Below the pieces are notes generated by a model. The model did no database searches. It saw only the letters and a program-made list of their open reading frames with translations, and was not told the origin of the DNA. This document shows, one piece after another, positions 42,491 through 53,675 of a stretch of 64,000 nucleotides of DNA. The stretch comes from Kineothrix sp. MB12-C1. GTDB taxonomy: Bacteria; Bacillota; Clostridia; Lachnospirales; Lachnospiraceae. Both the position numbers and the translations under genes were made by a program. How positions within the stretch are numbered: the stretch's first letter is position 1; every line of letters begins with the position of its first letter. Location of the stretch: assembly GCF_030863805.1 (NCBI RefSeq), contig NZ_CP132957.1, positions 3,720,001 through 3,784,000 of the forward strand, in the 5' to 3' direction.

Positions 42491-42534
42491 ATATAATATT
42501 GAATTGAAAAATAAGAATTTGTGGAGGTATACAT

Positions 42535-42573
42535 ATGGTAATGTGCATTGCAAATGCTCCATGCAGAGTTTGA
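42535..42573 (+). CDS. 12-codon leader peptide MVMCIANAPCRV
   Basis: A short ORF encoding MVMCIANAPCRV has a near-perfect Shine-Dalgarno GGAGG (42523-42527) seven bases before its ATG. It lies 165 bases upstream of an MFS exporter of the macrolide-efflux type. Its last codons form the 5' arm of a 9-bp hairpin. This is the layout of ribosome-stalling leaders that control erm, mef/msr and similar resistance genes. The peptide is not one I recognise. Confidence 0.6.
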   Translation: MVMCIANAPCRV

Positions 42574-42698
42574 GGATGATGCATGGAGGAAAAATATAAG
42601 CAGACAAATAAAGAAGTTCGTCTGTAAATATATGATATAGTCCTCAGACTTTGCTCTTGATTTAGCGGAAAATCGAAAATTAAAGGAGCAAAGTAAAT
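42556..42698 (+). promoter_or_regulatory. Probable translational attenuator of the MFS exporter
   Basis: Hairpin 1: CTCCATGCA (42557-42565) with TGCATGGAG (42580-42588), containing the leader stop codon in its loop. Hairpin 2: CAGAC (42601-42605) with GTCTG (42620-42624). Hairpin 3: ACTTTGCTC (42648-42656) with GAGCAAAGT (42686-42694), which covers most of the exporter's GGAG site. GTCTG can instead pair with CAGAC at 42645-42649, which would break hairpin 3. These competing structures fit ribosome-controlled unmasking of the start site. Confidence 0.6.
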
Positions 42699-42699
42699 T

Positions 42700-43995
42700 A
42701 TGAAAAATTCAATAAGAGGCGTAAAGGCTTTTATAATTCTTTGGAGTACACAATCCCTGTCTCAGCTTGGAAGCTCTATGACAAGTTTTGCTTTAACATT
42801 ATGGCTCTATGAGCAGACAGGTTCTGCGCTCAAAACAGCACTTTTATCCATATGTTCTTATGCGCCATATGTTTGCATGAGCATATTTGCCGGTGCACTC
42901 AGCGATAGATGGAACAAAAAGAAAGTGATGCTTGTTTGCGATACGCTTGCAGCTTGTTGCACGATTGTAGTTTTAATGTTATTAAAAAATGACCTTTTGA
43001 TGCCGTGGCATATATATTTGTTAAATGTAGTTAGTGGATTGATGAATACAATCCAGCAACCGGCAAGCGATGTTACTATGACGTTGATTACACCAAAGAA
43101 TCAGTATCAAAGAACGAGCGGACTACGCTCTTTTTCCAACTCACTCGTAACGATCCTGAATCCGGTACTGGCTACATCTTTGTTTGCATTTGCCGGAATG
43201 GATGCGGTGATTTATGTAGATTTAGCAACTTTTGCAGTGGCGTTTTTGGCATTGTTTTTCTTTGTACGGATTCCGGAGACTGTACATGAAAAAATATCAG
43301 ATAGGAAACCTCTTTTCAAGGAGGCAGAAGCTGGACTTTATTATCTGAAGAATAATCCGATGATTCTAACACTGATTCTTTTTCTTGCCGGGGTTAATTT
43401 TGTGGCATCTGCGTTTGATTCCGCGCTGCCGGCATATATTCTTCCGAGAAATAACGGTGGAGAAACGGTGCTGGGTATTGTAACATCTTGTGCGGGAGTG
43501 GCAACTCTTGCAGGTAGTTTGCTTGTTACGATGATGCCAAAACCTAAGAATCGCATTCGGGTAATTTATCTTACTATGTTATTTTCATTAAGCACAGAAA
43601 ATTTTATGCTTGCGTTCAGTAGAGAGCCGATTATGTGGTGTTTATCTCAGATTGTGGGGTGGATAGTTGTTCCGGTCATGAGTGCAAATTTAGATGTTAT
43701 TTTAAGAAGTACAATACCGGTGCATATGCAAGGACGAGTATATTCTTACCGGAATACACTTCAGTTCTTTACAATCCCTATAGGGCGATTTTTAGGTGGT
43801 TTTTTGGTCGATAAAGTATTTGAACCGATAGTGGAACGGGCATCAGCAGATAGTATACTTGTACATGTCTGGGGAAACGAAAAAGGTAGCGGAGCGGCCA
43901 TCGTGATGTTGGTACTTGGAATTGCGGGTACATTGATTTGCTTAGCCTTTAGAGGGGGTTTGAAGAAGTATAGTTTTGCTGAACCAGTTCAATGA
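42700..43995 (+). CDS. MFS efflux transporter, macrolide-efflux (Mef-like) type
   Basis: A 431-residue, 12-helix major facilitator. LWSTQSLSQLGSSMTSFALT and GALSDRWNKKKVMLVCDTLA (the A-motif loop) match the Mef/TetV-like drug exporter group, as does RSFSNSLVTILNPVLATSLF. It would export a drug by proton antiport. Its ribosome binding site is embedded in a hairpin controlled by the leader peptide region. Confidence 0.9.
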   Translation: MKNSIRGVKAFIILWSTQSLSQLGSSMTSFALTLWLYEQTGSALKTALLSICSYAPYVCMSIFAGALSDRWNKKKVMLVCDTLAACCTIVVLMLLKNDLLMPWHIYLLNVVSGLMNTIQQPASDVTMTLITPKNQYQRTSGLRSFSNSLVTILNPVLATSLFAFAGMDAVIYVDLATFAVAFLALFFFVRIPETVHEKISDRKPLFKEAEAGLYYLKNNPMILTLILFLAGVNFVASAFDSALPAYILPRNNGGETVLGIVTSCAGVATLAGSLLVTMMPKPKNRIRVIYLTMLFSLSTENFMLAFSREPIMWCLSQIVGWIVVPVMSANLDVILRSTIPVHMQGRVYSYRNTLQFFTIPIGRFLGGFLVDKVFEPIVERASADSILVHVWGNEKGSGAAIVMLVLGIAGTLICLAFRGGLKKYSFAEPVQ

Positions 43996-52466: not shown

Positions 52467-53675
52467 TTATAAGTGGCTCTTTCGAACGGATGGAGTGAGA
52501 AGCATGGTTGCTGCTAAACAAACAGAAAGTACACCGCCGATGAAGAAGCAAATATTGACTCCCATAAGTTCGGAAACAGTTCCTCCGAAGAGCAGGCCTA
52601 AGGGAGATGCGAAAAGGCTTACGCTATATGCAAGGGAGAGCACACGTCCCAAGTAATCTCCGGGCACATTGCTCTGGAGGATAGCCGTCCTCAGTCCATA
52701 GAAAAACGGAAGGGTCAGTCCCATGAGAATCGATAAGAGAATAAAAGGGCGCAGACCGTCGGGAGGCAATAGACCCGCCGCCATCAACCCCAGACCATAT
52801 ATTCCGATGGAAGCTGTGATGCCTCCTAACTTACGAATTTTATTTCCCATTAGACCTAATAAAAAGGAGCCTAGTAGTGTGCCAGAGGAAAATGCGATCT
52901 CCACCATACCCGACTCGGCTACGCCGCCGCCGAAATAAGCCATAGTAATAAGAGGATACATGGATCCGATAGGAAAATAAATAAAGGCATATACGGTGCT
53001 GATAATCATAACGGCCATAAGACCGGGCACGCGCCGGAGGACGGCAAATCCTTCCTTAGTGTCTTTCCAGATGTGGAGGGAAACTCGTTCCTCTTGGGCA
53101 GTAGCATACCGGGCTATAGGAAGAAGGATAACAATGATAATAGCTACTGCAGCCCCAACCACATCCAGAAGGATGATGGCGCTCAGATCCCATAATTTGA
53201 AGAGGAGTGCAGCGAGGGCAGGACTCAGGATTAAAGAGACCGACTCGAATCCTTGAGTAATTCCGGCACAGCGAGTTAACGCCTCCTTGGGCACCAATGT
53301 CGGTACTACAGCGTTGAAGGCGGGCGTATGGAAAGCAGCCCCCACTGAACGCAGACAGAGCATAGCGAAAATGAGCCAGATGGGAATATCTCCGGATAAG
53401 GCGACCGCTGCAAGAACCAGGGCAGCCAGGGCAATAATCAGATCGGCAAAAACCAAAATTTTCTTTCTGTCGAAGCGGTCGATAAATACTCCGGTAAAAA
53501 GCCCCAGCACCGCCCGGGGTAAATAACCGGCCAAGGTGGATAGAGTGACGATAGTTGGTGATAATGTTTTCTGTGTGAGATACCAAACGATAGATATTTG
53601 AAGAATGGAACTGGTGAGCATAGAAACAGCCTGCCCTACTCCAAGAAGAACGAATTTAGTTTTCCAGTTTTTCAT
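52467..53675 (-). CDS. MFS drug exporter
   Basis: A 402-residue, 12-helix major facilitator. GLFTGVFIDRFDRKKILVFA is the A-motif loop and AFNAVVPTLVPKEALTRCAG is the conserved mid-protein block shared by TetV/Mef-like exporters. AGGAGG precedes the ATG at 53675. Likely co-transcribed with the MATE gene. Substrate unknown. Confidence 0.9.
   Translation of the reverse strand: MKNWKTKFVLLGVGQAVSMLTSSILQISIVWYLTQKTLSPTIVTLSTLAGYLPRAVLGLFTGVFIDRFDRKKILVFADLIIALAALVLAAVALSGDIPIWLIFAMLCLRSVGAAFHTPAFNAVVPTLVPKEALTRCAGITQGFESVSLILSPALAALLFKLWDLSAIILLDVVGAAVAIIIVILLPIARYATAQEERVSLHIWKDTKEGFAVLRRVPGLMAVMIISTVYAFIYFPIGSMYPLITMAYFGGGVAESGMVEIAFSSGTLLGSFLLGLMGNKIRKLGGITASIGIYGLGLMAAGLLPPDGLRPFILLSILMGLTLPFFYGLRTAILQSNVPGDYLGRVLSLAYSVSLFASPLGLLFGGTVSELMGVNICFFIGGVLSVCLAATMLLTPSVRKSHL

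Follow-up and report, generated by a model that had tools for sequence, protein, structure and literature searches.

Locus and leader ORF

The window, the whole 64,000-nt stretch analysed here, was part of a single-contig genome of 3.94 Mb from a gut-type bacterium, and its named relatives in a contig search belonged to the Lachnospiraceae. A short leader ORF was separated by 126 nt from the start codon, nt 42700, of a gene encoding an MFS exporter. The following features were located in this region:

42523–42527, + strand: leader Shine-Dalgarno sequence GGAGG, read directly; a similar motif lies within 18 nt upstream in 91 of 95 leaders
42535–42573, + strand: leader ORF MVMCIANAPCRV*, 12 codons, from ATG 42535 to TGA 42573; conserved in orthologues (95 unique leaders; synonymous test at codon 3)
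42557–42588, + strand: hairpin A, 9 bp, CTCCATGCA (42557–42565) with TGCATGGAG (42580–42588), seen in the fold; its 5′ arm is leader codons 8–11
42563–42577, + strand: antisequestor, the 5′ strand of helix B, GCAGAGTTTGAGGAT; leader codons 10–12, stop codon and 3′ flank, complementary to 42640–42654
42601–42624, + strand: spacer hairpin, CAGAC (42601–42605) with GTCTG (42620–42624); present in the fold, not conserved
42640–42654, + strand: 3′ strand of helix B, GTCCTCAGACTTTGC; its ACTTTGC part doubles as the 5′ arm of helix C
42648–42694, + strand: helix C, the sequestor, 9 bp, ACTTTGCTC (42648–42656) with GAGCAAAGT (42686–42694), seen in the fold; covers the exporter AAGGAG
42683–42688, + strand: exporter Shine-Dalgarno sequence AAGGAG, read directly; paired in the whole fold, unpaired once the RNA upstream of 42563 is removed
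42700–43995, + strand: MFS exporter, 431 aa, distantly Mef-like; MFS_1/MFS_3 matches, TIGR00900 below cut-off

Direct reading bore out the 12-codon ORF with a strong GGAGG that had been predicted here. The nearest named relatives of the exporter were Mef macrolide pumps, with scores far under the cut-off; Mef(A) was matched at 103.5 bits against a cut-off of 675, which leaves the exporter outside the mef family at the curated score. A phmmer comparison of the exporter with solved structures gave no match, and no relatives were found in viral contigs. A paralogue in the same genome (L002, 39% identity) also carried a leader, MILAIAEAPCKV, and when this genome was searched by pattern for a second LCI leader, the only hit, at the beginning of another MFS gene, was due to chance. 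The window contained no tRNA, and the idea of a tRNA or T-box element was dropped.

Orthologues of the exporter, sharing 38% to 79% identity, were gathered both within the family and among GTDB species. Absence of the leader from orthologues would have refuted the original prediction, and the outcome favoured it: of the 60 distinct regions upstream of orthologous exporters, 57 had the leader, together with the hairpin and helices; the exceptions were L019 and L036, which lacked the leader, and L022, which lacked its start codon. The consensus was M-x-L-[CAT]-I-[AV]-x-A-P-C-[RK]-V, and a search with the leader pattern yielded 28 forward matches compared with none for the reversed-pattern control. 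A covariance model built on the leader and the first hairpin (R1) had matches in many clostridial families of the order and class, and in only one further genome across the sampled phylum. A second Mef-like MFS gene of the window (nt 52575–53657, minus strand), about 9 kb downstream and 24% identical to the exporter, had no match to the leader model. At L106, L116, L134 and L059/L097, an intact leader preceded an exporter that was broken or internally deleted; it appears that the switch can outlive its gene.

Residues were counted over the 95 unique leaders. Codon 3 specified Leu in 80, all six Leu codons being used, and the split into codon classes (TTR 28, TTY 1, CTR 12, CTY 40; Fisher test, 2.9e-11) indicates selection for leucine, not for nucleotides. 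Residue 4, mostly Cys, was C, A or T in 78 leaders and S in one more (79/95 C/A/S/T), with other residues in 16; residue 5 was Ile in 83 of the 95, and residue 6 was Ala or Val in the same number (83/95). Whether positions 4 and 6 compensate for each other was examined over the leaders, and no clear pattern emerged (48/31/11/5 table). The leucine codon and its conserved neighbours (positions 3–6) lay upstream of hairpin A. Residues A8-P9-C10 were encoded by the hairpin A arm and shifted along with it in L080, L089, L153 and L154; their conservation is thus confounded with that of the hairpin and is an RNA constraint not creditable to the peptide. The Ile 5 codon (nt 42547–42549 in the window) was ATT in 82 of 83 leaders and the next base was nearly always G, and this AUUG tract looks like a constraint at the RNA level.

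RNA helices between leader and exporter

The minimum-energy fold of the 200-nt RNA was -51.7 kcal/mol, far stabler than shuffled sequences (z = -4.8; 0 of 200 as stable), and all three hairpins of the original prediction appeared in it at their places. Two of them, the 9-bp hairpin overlapping the leader end (hairpin A) and the 9-bp hairpin hiding the exporter ribosome-binding site (helix C), proved on comparison to be covarying helices. In hairpin A, 98% of cells were paired, and three pairs showed changes on both sides. The CUUUGC/GCAAAG core of helix C, adjoining the exporter GGAG, was nearly invariant, with covarying replacements in L153 and L154. Three strands had changed together in L154, namely the leader (ACAAGGUC), middle (GGACCUUGU) and exporter-side (GCAAGGUC) strands, and a replacement of the whole switch was also seen in L153.

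The remaining hairpin, CAGAC/GTCTG, had been assigned the switching role, with GTCTG changing partner to free the exporter site. A 5-bp pairing of GTCTG with CAGAC at 42646–42650 is possible, but the spacer ranged from 6 to about 100 nt in orthologues and was unrelated in sequence, and this pairing is not the switch. The conserved partner is instead the 3′ end of the leader: nt 42563–42577 pair with nt 42640–42654 over 15 bp in a third covarying helix, helix B, which was absent from the original prediction. Generally, GCARRGUYU and the next nucleotides of the leader end pair with a strand made up of CUUUGC and the nucleotides directly before it. The distal part of helix B varied by lineage and covaried, the leader ends pairing at -12.6 kcal/mol with their own partners versus -8.6 kcal/mol with swapped ones; in permutations, this was equalled in 0 of 5000 for the variable group (group 2) and 3 of 5000 for the conserved group (group 1). 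The joint replacement of strands and their shared partner indicate that the leader end and the exporter ribosome-binding region are near-copies competing for one strand.

Ribosome position and the proposed attenuation

For each of 48 leaders, a ribosome was set at successive codons and the remaining RNA was folded; the procedure takes no account of pseudoknots, and hairpin A and helix B could form together. In the free RNA of the 48 sequences, the median unpaired probability of the exporter Shine-Dalgarno sequence was 0.08, the site being closed by default. It reached 0.53 with codon 5 in the P site and was 0.22 at codon 6 and later. The opening peak stayed within codons 4–6 for footprints of 12 to 17 nt downstream, and shuffling of the hairpin loop, which destroys the antisequestor, abolished the opening (Wilcoxon, 7e-10). 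The window RNA was closed when whole; with the part upstream of 42563 removed, the 15-bp helix B was dominant and the Shine-Dalgarno sequence was fully unpaired. The switch was reduced to a minimum before the exporters L033 and L035, where the exporter GGAGG lies within hairpin A, and this fixes the direction, that is, covering of the 5′ arm turns the gene on.

On this geometry, in the absence of drug the leader would be translated and released, hairpin A would re-form, and helix C would shut the exporter ribosome-binding site. A drug-bound ribosome would stall near codon 5 with nascent M-x-L-C-I, covering the 5′ arm of hairpin A and leaving the leader nucleotides from codon 10 onward free; L3-C4-I5 would be at the peptidyl-transferase centre when the switch opens. 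The freed leader end would then pair over 15 bp with 42640–42654 and take the CUUUGC strand off the exporter Shine-Dalgarno sequence, so that the exporter would be made and presumably export the drug. We infer the stall itself from this geometry, and suppose a drug to be its cause. Chloramphenicol stalling at A8-P9 or A6 (positions 6 and 8 are often Ala) was considered and rejected, as a ribosome there covers the antisequestor; Ala 8 was also discarded as peptide evidence, since hairpin A restricts codon 8 to xCU, which leaves A, T, S or P.

The computational features of a translational attenuator were all observed: a leader ORF with a Shine-Dalgarno sequence, a site sequestered by default, and an alternative pairing dependent on the ribosome. 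The original prediction, a putative attenuator in which a leader peptide controls a drug-export gene whose ribosome-binding site is masked, is strongly supported by conservation, by coding selection and by covariation. We consider it probable that the system is a ribosome-stalling translational attenuator sensing a ribosome-bound antibiotic, with a phenicol-like peptidyl-transferase inhibitor as the most likely inducer.

Ribosome-mediated translational attenuation of resistance genes is already known for cat, cmlA, fexA and erm (PMC8876359, PMC5418344). The chloramphenicol attenuators of cat, cmlA and fexA (PMC8876359, PMC5418344) share with the window system a short leader ORF, alternative hairpins masking the ribosome-binding site of the resistance gene, and placement before both CAT and exporter genes; a drug-dependent stall is a feature of theirs, whereas here it is deduced. 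The window type differs in having a 15-bp antisequestor made from the leader's own last codons, in being clostridial, and in its attachment to at least five gene families. In ermC-type attenuators, too, segments 1:2 and 3:4 form the closed state and 2:3 the open one, and a stall masks segment 1, but here the loop of hairpin 1 contains segment 2 and neither an erm gene nor an erm leader sequence is involved. The mef/msr(D) attenuators (PMC4335068, PMC10314930) likewise have a short leader ahead of an MFS pump belonging to the wider Mef group, whereas mef/mel is controlled by transcription attenuation and the window exporter, which follows an unrelated peptide, would be controlled by sequestration of its ribosome-binding site.

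Rfam scans of the window at gathering thresholds and of the element at E values up to 1 matched no family, and no paper describing this peptide or RNA was matched in a literature search that had most of the subscription literature out of its reach. The window peptide appears unrelated to the cat-type leaders MVKTD and MKKSE, in which residue 4 is small, and has no visible similarity besides a small residue 4 to the leaders of cat86, cat-pC194 and cmlA. By its computational features, the window system appears to be attenuation of a known kind with a new peptide and RNA, and leader and switch are probably an undescribed sensor that turns resistance on when an antibiotic jams the ribosome. If so, this would be a widespread, previously undescribed antibiotic-sensing leader in Clostridia, where inducible resistance is poorly known. 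M-x-L-C-I would be a short arrest peptide of a new type, with a mutational series supplied by its natural variants, in a switch whose regulatory RNA strand is the peptide's own last codons. The leader sequence would also serve as a marker for undiscovered resistance genes, because the gene behind it is probably induced by a ribosome-targeting drug.

Genes behind the leader and nature of the putative inducer

Three CatA-like acetyltransferases were encoded behind the leader (L139, with MKFCIAVFPCKA; L142; L184). The best NCBIfam match of L139 and L142 was chloramphenicol O-acetyltransferase type A at 210 to 212 bits, below the cut-off of 270; these proteins had the catalytic motif HHxxxDG and retained the residues that align with the active-site serine of CAT III. 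The leaders of L142 and L184 (MKRGLDxAPCEA) had lost the LCI core and kept the RNA. The leader model did not match the CAT homologues L158–L162 or the plasmid copy L163, which confines the association with CAT genes to three genomes. Two ABC-F ATPases (L177, MTLTIAKAP..; L179, MILTIEAAL..) had OptrA as best resistance-type match and PoxtA among solved structures; the housekeeping ABC-F proteins EttA and YbiT gave higher scores. Two MATE pumps (L143, MKLCISNASYRV; L145, MKLCIIYASYKL) followed leaders with the peptide start kept and a wholly different hairpin sequence, and two further leaders (L168, L170) preceded an esterase-like protein. Six genomes, all from one family (L117–L122), had behind the leader a hydrolase of 430 residues that resembles neutral ceramidase only weakly (Pfam E value 0.017; profile versus 2zws, 0.047). 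Ceramide and chloramphenicol share a 2-acylamino-1,3-diol core, so that such an amide hydrolase would be a sensible resistance enzyme, which we offer only as a lead.

With a stall at codon 5, residue 4, which is C, A, S or T in 79 of the 95 leaders, would become penultimate. Stalling by chloramphenicol and linezolid is strongest when the penultimate residue is Ala and weaker when it is Ser or Thr (PMC8987054); Cys, the commonest residue 4, is not named in this published context rule (PMC8987054). The CatA-like and ABC-F groups have chloramphenicol resistance in common. We lean, with some reserve, towards a phenicol-like inducer, and the associated genes make it likely that such a peptidyl-transferase inhibitor is to be favoured over macrolides or lincosamides.

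The RNA also occurred with other peptides, in matches that score weakly (23 to 31 bits) and call for caution one by one. The same chassis carried a leader rich in +x+ motifs, MVVKKRVRKQLHAKSR (MVVKKRVRK..), before another Mef-like pump (L169), an unrelated leader before a SpoU-type rRNA methylase (L167, 90–240), and leaders before two CD3324-family genes (L176, L183), that of L176 (MCMNKKRKND..) being also rich in +x+ motifs. Other weak model matches (L146–L148, L155, L156, L172, L174, L175, L178, L180–L182 and L185) look like chance and were set aside. We tentatively raise the possibility that Clostridia share a modular resistance regulon, in which a single RNA chassis made up of the CUCCAUGCARAGUCU hairpin and helices B and C takes exchangeable sensor peptides, and the L-[CAT]-I-[AV] peptide would be dedicated to sensing phenicol-like drugs and would mark unrecognised resistance genes such as the weakly ceramidase-like amide hydrolase, the esterase-like protein and the window exporter.

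Three other explanations were weighed. That the same switch responds to exit-tunnel drugs such as macrolides or lincosamides, in the manner of mef/msr and erm leaders, seems rather doubtful: the kinship of the exporter to Mef macrolide pumps, though far below cut-off, the fit of a stall after about 5 to 6 residues to short macrolide arrest peptides, and the +x+-rich peptide before a Mef-like pump on the same RNA in L169 would agree with it, but the LCIA leader has no +x+ motif and accompanies CatA-like and OptrA/PoxtA-like genes rather than erm or msr, and L169 suggests that a macrolide-type peptide is exchanged in where a macrolide response is needed. It is also improbable that the leader is a general sensor of translation rate, opened by any slowing of the ribosome without peptide-specific arrest. 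The codon-5 position is dictated by RNA geometry, several ribosome inhibitors could pause there, and L142 and L184 lack the LCI core yet keep the RNA; against this, Leu 3 is kept through synonymous change, Ile 5 is strongly conserved, and LCI/LTI recurs with a different hairpin (L143, L145, L168, L170, L177, L179).

A ligand-binding riboswitch or pseudoknot with an incidental short ORF is hardly credible. The structure is strong, and the distal part of helix B sits in the loop of hairpin A, where an H-type pseudoknot could form; however, the ORF has a strong Shine-Dalgarno sequence, a start codon and a reading frame and is under coding selection, the RNA lacks a large conserved aptamer core left unpaired, and Rfam gave no match up to E = 1. 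A stalling attenuator remains the preferred reading.

Two variants of the arrangement were observed. At L017/L048 (G373:C27, ~20440), a deletion fuses the leader end to about the eighth codon of the exporter, a TTG start overlaps the leader stop, and the sequestering helix is absent; this looks like a natural constitutive mutant. In L143 (MATE) and L179 (ABC-F), terminator-like hairpins with U runs follow the leader elements, which suggests transcriptional rather than translational attenuation.
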